Source of the DNA: Streptosporangium brasiliense
Lineage (GTDB): Bacteria > Actinomycetota > Actinomycetes > Streptosporangiales > Streptosporangiaceae
Assembly (NCBI RefSeq): GCF_030811595.1
Contig: NZ_JAUSRB010000002.1
Coordinates: 4,340,001-4,404,000 of the forward strand
DNA length: 64,000 bases
Reading direction: 5' to 3'
Shown here piece after piece: positions 4,106 to 15,624 of the stretch. The position numbers and the translations under genes are program-made. Within the stretch, counting starts at the first letter, position 1. Each line of letters opens with the position of its first letter. Below the pieces are notes generated by a model that was not told where the DNA came from, made no database searches, and saw only the letters and a list, made by a program, of their open reading frames with translations.

Positions 4106-4213
4106 CGCAGGCCGGGCGGGCATGGGCGAATATTGGGATGCGGCCGCGCCGAGGCTCGGGCACGATGGGCGGTTGGCTCCTGACTTGCGGGCTGAAAGTA
4201 CTCTGGAAGCAGT

Positions 4214-10072: not shown

Positions 10073-10200
10073 ATGCCGGTGGAGTTTCGGCTTCTGGGTG
10101 ACGTCGAGGTCCTCCTCGACGGTCGGCACATCGAGATCGGGCCCAGCGGTGCTACCGGACCGAGGGGCGGCACCAGGACGCGGAGCGCCCGGGACGGCGA
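10073..10200 (+). pseudogene. Broken SARP/AfsR-type regulator fragment
   Basis: From ATG 10073 the translation VEFRLLGDVEVLLDGRHIEI matches the conserved first strands of SARP/BTAD regulators, which begin with an FRLLGPVEV-like strand and a GxxxxLGxxxQR helix. After about 25 residues the reading frame is lost. In a neighbouring frame AQRCY appears where the family has QRCVLA, suggesting a frameshift followed by deletion. No wing helix or BTAD domain follows. It sits on the opposite side of the RiPP locus from the intact SARP gene and may be a decayed second regulator. The 3' limit is arbitrary. Confidence 0.4.
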
Positions 10201-10279: not shown

Positions 10280-10325
10280 TTTCCCGGGCCGGAGGGCGGC
10301 GTTTTCCCGGGCCGGAGGGCGGCGT
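10280..10325. repeat. Perfect 23-bp tandem repeat upstream of the RiPP precursor
   Basis: The unit at 10280-10302, starting TTTCCCGGGCCGGAGG, is repeated exactly at 10303-10325. Each unit contains the palindrome CCCGGG. The spacing is close to two helical turns, which could suit a DNA-binding protein, but it may also be a leftover of local duplication. Confidence 0.9.
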
Positions 10326-10392
10326 CGTCCGGAGCCGCACCCTCAGCACCTGCAAAACAGGTCTTTTGACGGAAAAATCCAGGTCGGAGCCG

Positions 10393-10437
10393 TGGTAGCG
10401 GTTTGATAGTCCTTTGGTAGCGTCGGTCGTTTATTCT
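10393..10437 (+). promoter_or_regulatory. Candidate SARP operator ladder and -10 box for the RiPP operon
   Basis: TGGTAGCG occurs at 10393-10400 and 10415-10422, with a degenerate copy TGATAGTC at 10404-10411. All three start exactly 11 bp apart. A -10-like TATTCT lies at 10432-10437, nine bases after the last repeat. Direct heptamer repeats at 11-bp spacing ending about 8 bp before a -10 box are the established layout of SARP-activated promoters. The start codon is about 70 bp downstream. Confidence 0.6.
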
Positions 10438-10504
10438 TCGGGTGGAAACGGCCGGACCGAATTCGGCCCGCCGGAATTCCGCGTCCCGCAAGGAGGGCTT
10501 GGGA

Positions 10505-10876
10505 ATGGCATTCGACCTCGTTATCCAAGAAGCGCCCGCCAGGGAAATGTATCCGAAATCCTTCCGCACCTCCCGGCAGTTCCTCGAGCTGAGCCTGCCG
10601 GAATCCATCGAGCGCATCACGGCCTATCTGGACGTCGACGACGCCGTCAAGCCGTTCGGGTACGCGTTCGAGATCGACTACGGGCCCGACCTGGTCGCGG
10701 GCAAGAACCCGCTCGCCGACCTCTGGTCGCAGCACCACTACGACCCCAAGGCGCAGATCTGGTCGACCTCGCACCAGGAGATCCGCATGCAGGGCGTGTA
10801 CACGAAGACCAACAAGAGCACCTATATCGGCGGCGGCGTGTGGATCAACGACCCGACCACCGATGACGCCTGTTGA
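10505..10876 (+). CDS. Graspetide-type RiPP precursor peptide
   Basis: Small protein of 123 aa, read as the precursor of an ATP-grasp-modified peptide because the maturase and PIMT-like methyltransferase follow. The leader includes PFGYAFEIDYG (50-60) and YDPKAQI (80-86), which resemble conserved leader segments of actinobacterial ATP-grasp target peptides. The C-terminal 25 residues, MQGV then YTKTNKSTYIGGGVW and INDPTTDDAC, are rich in Thr/Ser donors (T100, T102, S105, T106, T118, T119) and Asp acceptors (D116, D120, D121), as needed for side-chain ester links. The Gly-Gly-Gly turn could form a hairpin loop. The leader is longer than in most family members. ATG 10505 has a strong AAGGAGG site 8 bases upstream. 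The core boundary is inferred. Confidence 0.75.
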   Translation: MAFDLVIQEAPAREMYPKSFRTSRQFLELSLPESIERITAYLDVDDAVKPFGYAFEIDYGPDLVAGKNPLADLWSQHHYDPKAQIWSTSHQEIRMQGVYTKTNKSTYIGGGVWINDPTTDDAC

Positions 10877-10935
10877 CGGTCCGGTGACCTGACGGCCGGC
10901 CACCGTCCGGTTCCGTGACGTCCGCTCGTCCGGGC

Positions 10936-10965
10936 GGAGGCGGGAGCTCCCGCGTTCCCGCCTCC
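10936..10965 (+). promoter_or_regulatory. Intercistronic hairpin between precursor and maturase
   Basis: GGAGGCGGGA (10936-10945) pairs perfectly with TCCCGCCTCC (10956-10965) around a 10-nt loop, in the 150-bp gap between precursor and maturase genes. It lacks a U-tract. Such hairpins can limit read-through or protect the upstream message, keeping precursor in excess over enzyme. That role is inference. Confidence 0.6.
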
Positions 10966-11026
10966 TCACCGGCCGGTCATTCCTCCTGCGAGCAGCCTGC
11001 CGAACACGAAGCACGAAGGGATCCGC

Positions 11027-12028
11027 ATGAAGCGCACGGTCGTCGTCCTCACCCAGGAGATGGATCTCACCGCCGACAGCGTCGTCAAGGTCCTCCACGA
11101 CATGGATGTCCCGGTGTTCCGCTACGACACGAGCTACTACCCGGTCAACTCCACGCTGACGTACCGGATCGGTCCCGCGGGATGCACGACCGAGCTGTTC
11201 GACTCGACCCACAGCGAGCGGTCGATCTCGCTGGAGGATGTCGCGTCGGTCTGGTACCTGCGGCCGACGGCGTTCCGGTTCGACGACGCGCTCACCGGCC
11301 CGTTCCGCGAGTTCGCGCAGAAGGAGGCGGCGCACGCGTTCGGCGGGGTGATGAGCGGCCTGCCCGTGCTCTGGGTCAACCGTCCCGACCTGGAGGCACG
11401 TGCCGACTACAAGCCGCTGCAACTGCGGATCGCCAGAAGCGTGGGCCTGCGCGTGCCCCGGACCCTGATCACCAATGATCCCGCCCGCGTCAGGCCGTTC
11501 CATGCCGAGTGCGAGGGGTCGATGATCTACAAGGCGCTCAACAGCGGGCTGATCCGCGAGCCGGGCGGCTGGCCCGGCGGCCTGTTCACCTCGGCGGTGG
11601 CGCAGCTCGACGACGACCTGCTGGCCCGCGTCCGGTTCGCGCCCTGCATCTTCCAGGAGCTCGTCGAGAAGGCGTACGACCTGCGCATCACCGTCATCGG
11701 CGACCGGCTCTTCCCCGTCAGGATCGACGGCGTCGACGAGGACGGCGGGCGGGCCGTCGACTGGCGCTCCTGCCCGGTGGGCTCCGACGAGCACCTCCGG
11801 CACAGCAGGGTGGACATCCCCGAATCGGTGGAGACCGGCCTGCGCGCGCTCATGCGCGAGCTCGGGCTGAACTACGGCGCCGTGGACATGGTGGTCACAC
11901 CCCGCGGCGAGCATGTGTTCCTGGAGGTCAACCCGTCAGGGCAGTTCGCCTGGTTGGACGACGAGATCGAGGACCTGAATCTGAGGGGGGCCATGGCCGA
12001 GTACCTGGCGGCCGGCCTGGCCCGATAG
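11027..12028 (+). CDS. ATP-grasp ribosomal peptide maturase (graspetide synthetase)
   Basis: ATP-grasp ligase of 333 aa that in this family activates Asp/Glu side chains as acyl phosphates and joins them to Ser/Thr (ester) or Lys (amide) of the precursor core. The N-terminal pre-ATP-grasp part carries VVVLTQEMDLTAD and VWYLRPTAFRF. The ATP-binding region includes YKALNSGLI, a nucleotide-lid region and FQELVEKAYDLRITVIG. The C-terminal metal site is FLEVNPSGQFAWLD. These are features of the actinobacterial SAV_5884-like maturases. ATG 11027 follows AAGGGA. It is co-directional with the precursor and is followed 8 bp later by the methyltransferase, so the three form one operon. High confidence in family; ring pattern unknown. 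Confidence 0.9.
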   Translation: MKRTVVVLTQEMDLTADSVVKVLHDMDVPVFRYDTSYYPVNSTLTYRIGPAGCTTELFDSTHSERSISLEDVASVWYLRPTAFRFDDALTGPFREFAQKEAAHAFGGVMSGLPVLWVNRPDLEARADYKPLQLRIARSVGLRVPRTLITNDPARVRPFHAECEGSMIYKALNSGLIREPGGWPGGLFTSAVAQLDDDLLARVRFAPCIFQELVEKAYDLRITVIGDRLFPVRIDGVDEDGGRAVDWRSCPVGSDEHLRHSRVDIPESVETGLRALMRELGLNYGAVDMVVTPRGEHVFLEVNPSGQFAWLDDEIEDLNLRGAMAEYLAAGLAR

Positions 12029-12036
12029 GGATCGGC

Positions 12037-13209
12037 GTGCGACCCGCCACCACCGTCGACGAGATCGCCGCGGAGCGCCGGGCGGCTCTCGTCACGCTGC
12101 TCGCCGAGGAGAGAGGTCTGTCCTGTCCGCGGCTGCGGGCCGCCTTCGCCCGGGTGCCCCGGCACGCCTTCGTGGCTGACCACGCCTTCTGGCTGCCGGA
12201 ACGGCCGGACGACCGGTTCCGCTGGCCCGAGATGCCGGATCCGGCCGAGGCGATCGCCGCCGCCTACACGGACCGGCCCCTGGTCGTCCGGTGCGCGGAC
12301 GACGGCGGCATCCGATCGTCCTGCACCGCGCCGTCGCTCGTCGGGCACCTGCTGCAGGAACTGGACCCGCCCACCGGGGCGAGAGTCCTGGAGATCGGAA
12401 CGGGCACCGGGTACGCCGCGGCGCTGCTGTCCGAGGTCACCGGAGCGGCCGTCGAGACCGTCGAGATCGACCACGGCCTCGCCGCCGTGGCGGGCAGGAC
12501 GCTCGCGCGCCTCGGCTTCGACGCGGTCACGGTCCGCGCGGGCGACGCCACCCGGCTTGACTCCGGGTACGCGTGCTTCTCCCGGGTCCTCGTCTCGGCC
12601 GCGACCACCGTCGTCCCCGGTGGCTGGATCGCCGCGCTGCGACCGGGCGGGACGCTGGTCGCCACGTATCCGCTGCCGTGGCGGGGGCTCACCCTCGTGG
12701 TCCGCCGGACCGGCGAGGACATGGCCACCGGGCGGTTCCTGGCCAACGGCGGGCGCACCTGCCCCTCGCTGGTGCACGGCGGATCGAGCGGTGCCACGGC
12801 GCTACCCGGCGTGCCGGTCCACGAGGCCGTGGAGGTGAGCCTGGACGAGTTCGGGCCCGCCGGGTCGATCGAGCCGGGCACGCCTGCCGGCCTGGCCCTG
12901 CTCGCCGGTTTCGCGATCCCCGGGCTGGCCGCCCTGCCGTTCTCTCCCCCGGCCGGCGGTGCCCCCGCCGTCCAGCTCGTGGACGGCCACCGCGAGAACT
13001 GCTCGCTGATCGTGGACGGGAGCGGCGCGGTCCGCGCCACGTCCGCGGGCCGTGGCCTGGCCGAACGGCTGACGGCGGTGCGCCGGCTCTGGGACGGCGC
13101 CGGACGCCCGGACGAGGGCGGCTACGTGTGGTCGTGGCAGGCGGGCCGTACGAGCCTCGCCACGCGCGGCGGCCGCGTGCTGGGAGAGCGGGGCTTCCTT
13201 GGGACGTGA
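12037..13209 (+). CDS. PIMT-like methyltransferase of the ATP-grasp peptide system
   Basis: SAM-dependent methyltransferase of 390 aa related to protein-L-isoaspartate O-methyltransferase (PIMT). The SAM-binding motif is VLEIGTGTGYAAALL with the acidic loop VETVEID and GDAT following. The N-terminal FARVPRHAFVAD segment is typical of PIMTs. A C-terminal extension of about 150 residues distinguishes it from the repair enzyme. In characterised relatives (the fuscimiditide and amycolimiditide systems) such enzymes methylate an Asp of the ester-linked peptide, leading to an aspartimide. Whether that happens here is inference; D120 or D121 would be candidates because D116 precedes Pro. GTG 12037 lies 8 bp after the maturase stop. 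The end overlaps the transporter start by 11 bp. Confidence 0.88.
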   Translation: MRPATTVDEIAAERRAALVTLLAEERGLSCPRLRAAFARVPRHAFVADHAFWLPERPDDRFRWPEMPDPAEAIAAAYTDRPLVVRCADDGGIRSSCTAPSLVGHLLQELDPPTGARVLEIGTGTGYAAALLSEVTGAAVETVEIDHGLAAVAGRTLARLGFDAVTVRAGDATRLDSGYACFSRVLVSAATTVVPGGWIAALRPGGTLVATYPLPWRGLTLVVRRTGEDMATGRFLANGGRTCPSLVHGGSSGATALPGVPVHEAVEVSLDEFGPAGSIEPGTPAGLALLAGFAIPGLAALPFSPPAGGAPAVQLVDGHRENCSLIVDGSGAVRATSAGRGLAERLTAVRRLWDGAGRPDEGGYVWSWQAGRTSLATRGGRVLGERGFLGT

Positions 13210-14746
13210 GGAGGCCGCGGAGTTCCCGGAGCTTGCCGACGACCCCGCCTGGTATCCCCGCGAGGACGAGCTGTCGCGCGTGCCCTTCCGCGGCGCCGCC
13301 TCGGCGGGCGCCGTGGTCGACGCGACCGTCGACGTCGTGGCCGGGCTGGCCGGCATCGCCGCGGTGGCGGGCGTGCTGGGCATGCTCCACCCGCTGCTGC
13401 TGGCGCTGCTGGTCGTCGCCGCGCTGCCGGCCGGGTGGGCCGAGGTGCTGGTCGCCAGGATGGGGTACGCGACGGTCCACCTGCTGTCGACCAGCCTGCG
13501 GCGCAAGTGGATCCTCAACGAGCTCATGGCCGACCGTGCCACGGCACCGGAGGTCCGCTCGTACGGCATGAGCCGCTTCCTGCTGGCGCAGTTCTCCGCG
13601 GTCACCCGCGTCGAGCAGGGCGAGCGCCTGCGCCTGGCGCGCAGGCAGACGGGCGTCCGGGTGCTGGGGGAGGCCTTCGCGGCCCTGAGCGCGGGCGTGG
13701 TGTACCTGACGCTGGGCCTCCTGCTCGTCTTCGGGGTGGTCCCGCTGGCCGAGGCGGCCACTGCGGCGCTCGCCGTCGGCGTCGGCCGCACGACGCTCAT
13801 CGCCCTGATGCGCACGGTCAGCCGCTGCTACGAGGAGGGCCTGTACTTCACCGACTATCTCGACTTCTGCACGCTGGCGCGGGAGCGCACGCCGGAGCCG
13901 TCGCCCGGCGCCGCGTCCCCGGCCTTCGACACGATCACCCTGCGTGACGTGTCGTTCTCCTATCCGGCCTCCGACGTCGCGGTGCTCGACCGCGTCAACA
14001 TGGAGATCAAGCGAGGGGAGATCATCGCCCTCGTCGGCGAGAACGGCTCGGGCAAGTCCACGCCGGCGAGGATCCTGGCCGGACTCTACCGGCCGGACAG
14101 GGACGAGGTGAGATGGGACGACGTGCCCACGACCGAGATCGACCCCGCCGCGCTCCGGGCGCGGATCGGCTACGTGCCCCAGGACTACACCCGCTGGCCC
14201 CTCACGGCACGGCAGAACATCGAGGCGGGCGACGCGCGAGGAGACGCGCCGGTGATCGCGGCCGGCGCCGCGGCCGGGCTCGGCCCGGTCGTCGACCGGC
14301 TGCCGCACGGGTACGACACGCTGCTCGACCGCCGCTTCGCCGGGGGGCAGGAACTGTCCGGGGGGCAGTGGCAGCGGATCGCGATCGCCCGCGGCCTCTA
14401 CCGGGACGTGCCGCTGCTCATCTTCGACGAGCCGACGGCGGCCATGGACGCGCGCGCGGAGCACGCGCTGTTCGCCGACGTCAGCGCGCGGGTCCTCGGG
14501 CGGGGGGCGCCGGCGGGAGAGGAGGATCGGCAACCGCGGACGGTCGTCCTCATCACCCACCGCATGACGAGCGCGCAGCTCGCCGACCGGATCTACGTCC
14601 TGGACCGCGGCCGGATCGTCGAGCACGGCGCGCACGCCGGGCTGATGGCGCAGGACGGGCTGTACGCGGAGCTGTTCCGGCTGCATCTGGCCGTGTACGC
14701 GGCGCCGTCCGGCGCGGTGGAGGAGTCAGGCGCCGCGGCCGGGTGA
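13199..14746 (+). CDS. ABC exporter of the RiPP locus, N-terminally short
   Basis: Fused permease-ATPase half-transporter of 515 aa, probably exporting the peptide product. The nucleotide-binding domain (about 245-500) is intact: Walker A GENGSGKST, signature LSGGQWQRIA, Walker B LLIFDEP, H-loop ITHRM. The membrane part has only about four helices, in two pairs around residues 40-85 and 155-200. The start region matches the stretch that normally precedes helix 3 in six-helix exporters, so helices 1-2 (roughly 100 residues) appear to be missing. The only usable start is TTG 13199 inside the methyltransferase end, so no upstream exon-like sequence exists. It may be a functional short form, partner with another permease, or be a remnant of an internal deletion. 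Confidence 0.75.
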   Translation: MGREEAAEFPELADDPAWYPREDELSRVPFRGAASAGAVVDATVDVVAGLAGIAAVAGVLGMLHPLLLALLVVAALPAGWAEVLVARMGYATVHLLSTSLRRKWILNELMADRATAPEVRSYGMSRFLLAQFSAVTRVEQGERLRLARRQTGVRVLGEAFAALSAGVVYLTLGLLLVFGVVPLAEAATAALAVGVGRTTLIALMRTVSRCYEEGLYFTDYLDFCTLARERTPEPSPGAASPAFDTITLRDVSFSYPASDVAVLDRVNMEIKRGEIIALVGENGSGKSTPARILAGLYRPDRDEVRWDDVPTTEIDPAALRARIGYVPQDYTRWPLTARQNIEAGDARGDAPVIAAGAAAGLGPVVDRLPHGYDTLLDRRFAGGQELSGGQWQRIAIARGLYRDVPLLIFDEPTAAMDARAEHALFADVSARVLGRGAPAGEEDRQPRTVVLITHRMTSAQLADRIYVLDRGRIVEHGAHAGLMAQDGLYAELFRLHLAVYAAPSGAVEESGAAAG

Positions 14747-15508
14747 CGCGTCGGCGCTGAGGATGAGCTGTTCGACGCCGCGCAGCTCAGGCCCCGGCCC
14801 GAGCCCTTCGTTCTCCCGTAGGCGGCGCCGTACCCCGCGGAACACGGCGAGCGCCTCGGACCGGCGGCCCGCGCGGTGGAGCGCGGTCATGAGCTGGGCC
14901 GCCAGGTGCTCGCGCAGGGGGAAGAGGGCCACCTGCTCGCGGAGCCCGGGGATCACCTCCTGGGCCCGGCCCAGCCGCAGCTCGACATCGACCAGTTCCT
15001 CGAAGGCCAGCAGCCGCAGCTCGTCGAGCCGGGCGGCCTCCGCCCCCAGGCAGGGGACGTCGAGCCCGTCCAGGGCCGGGCCCCGCCACAGCGACAGCCC
15101 CTGCCGCAGCAGCCGGGCGGCCGCGTCCAGGTCGCCGTTCTCCCGCGCCGCCTCCGCGTCGGACACGAGCCGGTGGAACGCCAGCGCGTCGAGCTGATCC
15201 TCGGCGATCGTCAGGGCGTAACCCGAGGGGTGGGAGAGGATGACGTCCGCCGGCGCGAGCCGCTTCCTGAGCGAGGACACGCAGTAGTGGATCTGCGTCC
15301 GCGCCGTGTCCGGCGGCCAGCCGGGCCACAGTGCCCGGGTCAGCCGCTGGGCGGACACGACCTTGTTCGCGGCCAGCAGCATGGTCGCCAGCACGACGCG
15401 CGGACGCCGGGCGGATATCGGCAGGATCTGCTGGTACCGGCTCGCCTCCAGCGGGCCGAGGATGCTGAAACGCAGGGACCGGTCGTCAGATACGCCGTGT
15501 GCAACCAT
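14726..15508 (-). CDS. SARP-family transcriptional activator
   Basis: AfsR/DnrI-type regulator of 260 aa, made of an N-terminal OmpR-like winged helix (residues 12-105, FSILGPLEA, RPRVVLATMLLAANKVVS, QIHYCVSSLRKRL) and a BTAD domain (about 110-255). This is the small SARP layout without an ATPase. SARPs activate biosynthetic operons by binding heptamer direct repeats at promoters. The gene converges on the RiPP exporter with a 21-bp overlap of coding ends and is the likely pathway-specific activator. Direct repeats CTTGAATA with 11-bp period lie about 100 bp upstream, pointing to autoregulation or control by another SARP. ATG 15508 is the only good start. Confidence 0.9.
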   Translation of the reverse strand: MVAHGVSDDRSLRFSILGPLEASRYQQILPISARRPRVVLATMLLAANKVVSAQRLTRALWPGWPPDTARTQIHYCVSSLRKRLAPADVILSHPSGYALTIAEDQLDALAFHRLVSDAEAARENGDLDAAARLLRQGLSLWRGPALDGLDVPCLGAEAARLDELRLLAFEELVDVELRLGRAQEVIPGLREQVALFPLREHLAAQLMTALHRAGRRSEALAVFRGVRRRLRENEGLGPGPELRGVEQLILSADASPGRGA

Positions 15509-15605
15509 GTCGCGACCGTCGAACCCTTTCGCACGGGCCAGGACTGTCTGGACGGGCCCGAGGACCCATCAACACTCACTATTCATCGGCCACTGTGCGA
15601 AAAAC

Positions 15606-15624
15606 CTTGAATAAATCTTGAATA
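15606..15624 (-). promoter_or_regulatory. 11-bp-periodic direct repeats upstream of the SARP gene
   Basis: CTTGAATA is at 15606-15613 and again at 15617-15624 (TATTCAAG reading toward the SARP gene), with exactly 11-bp period. This is SARP-operator geometry. The heptamer differs from the TGGTAGCG ladder at the precursor promoter, so the two need not bind the same protein. Confidence 0.5.

Follow-up and report, generated by a model that had tools for sequence, protein, structure and literature searches.

What does the compact five-gene locus of Streptosporangium brasiliense described here make, and does the methyltransferase encoded within it take part in making it? The locus lies in a 64,000-nucleotide stretch of contig NZ_JAUSRB010000002.1 (positions 4,340,001 to 4,404,000), called the window here, and all coordinates below are counted from its first nucleotide. 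An earlier note, made from the sequence alone, had read it as a graspetide locus, one that specifies a ribosomally synthesized and post-translationally modified peptide (RiPP) matured by an ATP-grasp enzyme, and had proposed an imiditide-type product. The open reading frame (ORF) list and the sequence place all five genes where the note had put them: a precursor peptide gene, an ATP-grasp gene, a gene for a methyltransferase resembling protein isoaspartyl methyltransferases (PIMTs), a gene for an ATP-binding cassette (ABC) exporter, and a convergent gene for a Streptomyces antibiotic regulatory protein (SARP). All five have the GC distribution by codon position of coding DNA, with third-position values of 0.90-0.96. 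We consider it probable that the locus is a SARP-controlled graspetide cassette whose peptide carries two nested Thr-Asp esters, and that the methyltransferase is an add-on to it.

The ATP-grasp gene (11027-12028, plus strand) encodes 333 amino acids, and its product was assigned by family scans, a protein tree and structural relatives in the PDB (5ig9, matched with an E of 1e-47, and 7mgv). It is a synthetase of the MvdD/MdnC/TIGR04187 kind, scoring 304.6 bits against TIGR04187 (E 7e-91), below the cut-off of 350, and 43.5 bits against PF21068, above the cut-off of 27. Adjacent to it is the precursor gene (10505-10876, plus strand), whose 123-residue product ends in a core with Ser/Thr/Lys donors and Asp/Glu acceptors. 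The graspetide assignment is supported by these two family matches and the adjacent precursor.

Related cassettes were sought in 341 genomes of the same family, with a threshold of E <= 1e-65 and the best six first-look candidates scored in each genome. ATP-grasp matches were found in at least 23 genomes, S. brasiliense included, at no fewer than 27 places, one of them the window. Wide stretches were taken around 21 of the remaining 26 (L009 and L038-L057, from Nonomuraea and other genera; G284:C159, G315, G282, G306 and G065 were omitted), and these are the relative loci referred to below. In tblastn searches with the window proteins their ATP-grasp proteins are 40-61% identical to that of the window, an ABC exporter is present in 20 of the 21 and a SARP in six (L041, L047, L051-L054), and no methyltransferase was found in any of them at E <= 1e-3. 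L039 differs in gene order, with its exporter upstream of the precursor instead of after the ATP-grasp gene. A scan of genome contigs with the single ATP-grasp protein returned no relatives; one with a five-row alignment returned 14 loci, the close ones being four from Nonomuraea, whose ATP-grasp proteins are the nearest relatives (54-62% identity). The 47-row ATP-grasp tree (L108 was left out as too short) places the window within a 22-row clade with support of 100/94, of which 21 rows are without a methyltransferase. Inside it, the window and the four Nonomuraea proteins form a subclade (100/99) with the window beside all four (93/74). The tree does not decide between gain and loss of the methyltransferase; given that position, a single gain is the shorter account.

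The precursor leader contains KPFG (residues 49-52) and YDPKAQIW (79-86); after the leader motif the peptide reads STSHQEIRMQGVYTKTNKSTYIGGGVWINDPTTDDAC, with the core at about 95-123. When the precursor sequence was searched in 60 relatives' genomes, it matched its own genome and, weakly, G005 (E 0.004), where the match adjoins an ATP-grasp gene. With a profile of 12 precursors, from the window and 11 relative loci, precursors sharing this leader were found in 19 of 21 relative loci, all except L041 and L055. The alignment comprises 12 of the resulting 20 precursors, window included. P50, Y53, Y79, D80, Q84, W86 and D120 are invariant in it; D116 and C123 are each kept in 11 of the 12 rows, and a D-x3-D ending is present in 11, that of the window among them. 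The C-terminal Cys, described as unusual in the earlier note, is a trait of the family.

The predicted core consists of T102-x3-T106, a nine-residue loop (Y107-N115, YIGGGVWIN), D116-x3-D120, D121 and the C-terminal Cys123. The spacing [ST]-x3-[ST]-loop-D-x3-D occurs in ten of the 12 aligned cores, whereas 5000 shuffles averaged 0.65 and never exceeded 4; the pattern was selected after the rows had been viewed, and the rows are kin. Excerpts of PMC12291112 describe the fuscimiditide stem as Thr3/Thr7-Asp18/Asp22 esters around a ten-residue loop, and the spacing of T102/T106 and D116/D120 equals that of this stem. The leader KPFG is the counterpart of RPFG, for which the available part of PMC13003496 suggests the role of key recognition sequence in ThfA. 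Together, the stem spacing and the leader motif make a two-ester stem-loop graspetide likely, and on sequence evidence it is the most likely product.

In the pathway that we propose, the KPFG-bearing leader would recruit the ATP-grasp enzyme, which would then phosphorylate core Asp side chains and link them to Thr as omega-esters. The inner ester would join T106 to D116 and the outer, nested around it, T102 to D120, with YIGGGVWIN as the enclosed loop; a third one, such as T100-D121, may also form. Judged from the relatives sampled, the methyltransferase would be an addition to this cassette. Were it to act on the peptide, D121 would be the sole core Asp free of the two-ester stem.

A second leader-like ORF of about 100 codons lies just upstream of the precursor in 14 of the 21 relative loci (L009, L042-L048, L050, L052-L054, L056 and L057), as weaker matches to the precursor profile. 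It has the pattern PLAYLYE ... GHYD ... WSFSGE and no core, and is possibly a free-standing leader or a partner protein. Two such ORFs that were scanned had no family match, and the profile found none in the window.

Several results weigh against a working two-ester graspetide cassette. The TIGR04187 score, being below the cut-off, is not specific alone: matches at E <= 1e-3 occurred in seven of 14 control genomes (none above the cut-off), so that the graspetide case also depends on how low the E-value is, on the PF21068 match and on the precursor. That precursor matches no family in the NCBIfam and Pfam scans. The family check suggested in the earlier note gave a divided answer, since the precursor had no match to TIGR04186 (GRASP_targ) at E <= 1, and the matches to TIGR04187 and TIGR04188 are strong by E-value yet below the curated cut-offs. 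Among eight relatives' precursors scanned, that of L043 alone matches TIGR04186, weakly (E 0.049, 13.7 bits, cut-off 25), and none of the nine, window included, reached the cut-off of any NCBIfam or Pfam model. For comparison, 16 TIGR04186 loci (L099-L114) were passed through a motif filter that retained 11 and dropped 5, and these 11 are called canonical here; all have ATP-grasp and methyltransferase matches alongside the precursor. In a profile-profile comparison PfGY of the window leader family aligns with PWGL of the canonical precursors and YDPxxQ with LDPxtQ, a weak match (probability 28%, E 6e-4). Two of the 12 aligned cores (L038 and L050) do not have the stem spacing. All nine relatives that have it retain a third Asp, either in the tail or in the loop, so that the number of esters may be three instead of two. 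Lastly, the short exporter and the divergent methyltransferase, both considered below, make it doubtful whether the locus is functional. The AlphaFold model of the precursor was uninformative (mean pLDDT 36, four-row alignment).

The methyltransferase gene (12037-13209, plus strand, GTG start) encodes 390 amino acids, about 150 of them beyond the methyltransferase domain, and the PIMT-like character and C-terminal extension that had been claimed for it are confirmed. It begins eight bases past the ATP-grasp stop codon and overlaps the exporter frame, which suggests that the ATP-grasp, methyltransferase and exporter genes are on one transcript. The product scores 75.8 against PF01135, above the cut-off of 20.3, and 140.6 bits against TIGR04188, for which the cut-off is 380; ten homologous methyltransferases score 263-415 bits against TIGR04188, one of them above the cut-off. 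An AlphaFold model (five rows) has a good methyltransferase domain, with residues 238-390 at a pLDDT below 50 except one, and Foldseek searches with it retrieve the PIMTs 2yxe and 1dl5. The S-adenosylmethionine (SAM) motif LEIGTGTG is kept, as is WDGAGRP (W352-P358), an instance of the WxxxGxP motif given for these enzymes in the available text of PMC13001092. The [FY]GxT[VA] segment that follows WxxxGxP in all seven aligned homologues is missing.

These features raise the prospect of a canonical graspimiditide, in which the methyltransferase would methylate an Asp of the cyclised core to give an aspartimide. The gene order precursor - ATP-grasp - methyltransferase agrees with all 11 canonical loci examined, and the two motifs just named are kept. 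The core Gly-Gly-Gly, which had been called an unusual turn, is indeed absent from its 11 aligned clade relatives; it is present in seven of the 11 canonical precursors. The peptide itself is a poor fit. If the stem is T106-D116, the predicted loop YIGGGVWIN contains no Asp, and the core Asp residues are followed (position n+1) by Pro, Asp and Ala. Proline in that position has no amide NH, so no imide can form at Asp116-Pro117. In the 11 aligned canonical precursors a single Asp is invariant, and its n+1 residue is Gly in ten of them and Ser in the other. According to the sections of PMC13001092 available, known graspimiditide methyltransferases modify a loop Asp after cyclisation, with Gly at n+1 in the four characterised and Ser, Arg, Thr, Asn, Lys, Met and His also thought possible. 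No Asp of the whole window precursor is followed by any of these residues. Within the clade, L039 and L040, both without a methyltransferase, carry a loop Asp-Ser, so that loop Asp and methyltransferase are uncoupled there. A loop aspartimide is not predicted from this sequence, and with a methyltransferase found in none of the 21 relative loci, the imiditide-type peptide of the earlier note finds little support; we regard a canonical graspimiditide as unlikely.

The methyltransferase is also divergent in sequence. Among the 341 family genomes (best five candidates per genome), none outside its own genome matched it at 1e-40. Among 394 genomes of the class, a set that overlaps the former, at least 23 others match at 1e-25 or better, with 7e-33 as the lowest E-value (best four per genome scored). 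In a 34-row tree the window protein has the longest end branch (2.37, compared with a median of 0.25) and groups, with support of 99/99 and on that long branch, with kin that have no ATP-grasp match within their 1.5 kb flanks, the nearest being L060, L066, L068, L076, L080, L082, L083 and L084. This placement speaks against a canonical role; an approximately unbiased (AU) test (p 0.10) nevertheless does not reject its grouping with methyltransferases of five actinobacterial graspetide loci. The gene is real and divergent, and its PIMT-like product is without a clear target.

The same kin would agree with a methyltransferase that serves another substrate, a protein or some other peptide, and merely shares the operon. 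Wider stretches were taken around seven of the eight kin; in three of them (L130, L131 and L134), small proteins that we take to be DUF397-like are encoded near the methyltransferase. In one of the seven (L130), however, the methyltransferase has an ATP-grasp gene at a distance of about 1.7 kb, and the spacing that suggests a single transcript in the window also argues against an unconnected enzyme, which we consider very improbable. The DUF397-like proteins could be substrates or regulators of the kin methyltransferases.

A further, rather improbable reading is that the methyltransferase acts on the graspetide away from the loop. In that case D121, beside Ala122-Cys123, would be methylated to give a tail aspartimide or isoaspartate next to a free thiol, or Asp116-Pro117 would hold a stable methyl ester. 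If true, a tail imide or isoaspartate, or a stable methyl ester, would be a graspetide modification not met in the literature examined.

The exporter bears on whether the cassette, as a two-ester graspetide locus, is still functional. Its gene (about 13199-14746, plus strand, exact start codon uncertain) comprises a region with transmembrane helices (TM) 3 to 6 and an ATPase with Walker A, LSGGQ and Walker B all present. The exporter that had been reported is therefore there but is not complete, because the TM1-TM2 part is lacking, as judged from hydropathy of the window and five relatives and a five-row alignment. Simple hydropathy finds stretches at 35-88 and 155-204 of 515 only, the five relatives having extra earlier ones, and the six transmembrane helices of a permease are not accounted for. 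The window protein has 514-515 amino acids (515 from its first start codon), compared with 600 or more, by longest open frame, in 19 of 20 relatives (the frames of L047, L049, L051 and L054 being visibly over-extended) and 553 in L042. The N-terminal parts of five relatives' exporters find nothing in the window better than E 0.43. A frameshift concealing TM1-TM2 was considered and rejected, as the window has no similar sequence.

The window exporter may be broken, or its shortness may come from an assembly error. A broken exporter would agree with a decaying locus, one that has ceased to make or export its peptide. The methyltransferase gene occupies the place expected for the exporter N-terminal part, and the long end branch and missing C-terminal segment of the methyltransferase point the same way. 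So does a frame of about 30 codons at 10073-10162 (plus strand) that resembles the start of a SARP gene: it is 56% identical over 23 amino acids to the N-terminus of the L041 SARP (E 4e-6), its best match, which adjoins an ATP-grasp gene. The frame has no family match in NCBIfam or Pfam and is probably a relic of an upstream SARP regulator, a start without a body. Against decay, every frame is open and has the base composition of coding DNA, the ATPase motifs are in place, and both a SARP gene and an operator-like repeat are present. Decay is unlikely on balance; in a working cassette the mature peptide would leave through this shortened exporter.

The convergent gene at 14726-15508 (minus strand) does encode a SARP, as claimed, with its BTAD domain above the cut-off (PF03704, 140.6) and Trans_reg_C just below. 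Ahead of the precursor are three heptamers, TGGTAGC-4-TGATAGT-4-TGGTAGC, with an exact 11-bp period (10393-10421, plus strand), followed after 8 bp by TTTATT, a -10-like box (10430-10435, plus strand). As far as the available text of PMC4393881 goes, SARPs bind direct repeats at 11-bp spacing, the last one 8 bp from the -10 box; the window repeat fits this rule and is a putative site. Of 2000 Markov simulations based on the surrounding 134 bp, 11 attained its score, and in the whole window seven positions (six sites) do so. The pattern TGRNAGY-N4-TGRNAGY, of which the window has one further copy, an isolated pair at 4193, is present in four of the six SARP-bearing relatives (L047, L052, L053 and L054, with repeats of a similar TGARAGC type, not L041 or L051) and in none of the 15 without a SARP (one-sided Fisher 0.0025), for a pattern set after examples had been viewed and four relatives that belong to one five-row subclade and are not independent. 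These observations suggest that the cassette is probably under SARP control.

The cassette thus resembles the graspimiditides (group 13; fuscimiditide, ThfA/ThfB/ThfM, AmdA/B/M) in combining an ATP-grasp and a PIMT-like enzyme, in the KPFG/RPFG leader motif, and in the T-x3-T / D-x3-D stem around a loop of nine (window) or ten residues. It differs in having no loop Asp and no TIGR04186 precursor match, in ATP-grasp and methyltransferase scores below the TIGR04187 and TIGR04188 cut-offs, and in having cassette relatives without a methyltransferase. With those precursor - ATP-grasp - ABC cassettes (L009, L038-L057) it shares the leader motif, the D-x3-D ending, a SARP gene (six of 21) and the repeat operator (four of those six); unlike it, they have longer exporters and, in 14 of 21, the second leader-like ORF. 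Imiditides and pamtides also have a PIMT-like enzyme with a C-terminal domain, but there, in the portions of PMC13001092 and PMC10787088 available, it is the sole modifying enzyme, whereas the window also has an ATP-grasp enzyme. No published description matching the precursor family was found in the literature searched, supplements excluded. The cassette belongs to a little-described branch of a known peptide family and, unlike the relatives examined, has an extra methyltransferase, the usual target of which its peptide lacks. Its sharply defined donor and acceptor spacing, in a precursor family of which nine scanned members reached no NCBIfam or Pfam cut-off, makes the products predictable and testable. 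That this stem occurs both with a methyltransferase and without one is a natural contrast that could show whether RiPP PIMT homologues need a loop Asp and how they move between clusters.

A megablast search of 10505-13206 against plasmids (plasmids alone, phages left out) gave no match. At 10280-10325, past the SARP relic and ahead of the operator, some 22 bases (TTTCCCGGGCCGGAGGGCGGCG-like) are duplicated in tandem, as read by eye. The S. brasiliense genome has three further ATP-grasp loci. One (L010/L112) is a canonical precursor - ATP-grasp - methyltransferase set above the TIGR04187 cut-off. Judged by eye, the other two (L011 and L012) encode a large ABC protein whose start resembles a C39-type peptidase, together with a 370-amino-acid protein that may be a SurA-like partner of the kind described for rosaritide in the available part of PMC13097080.

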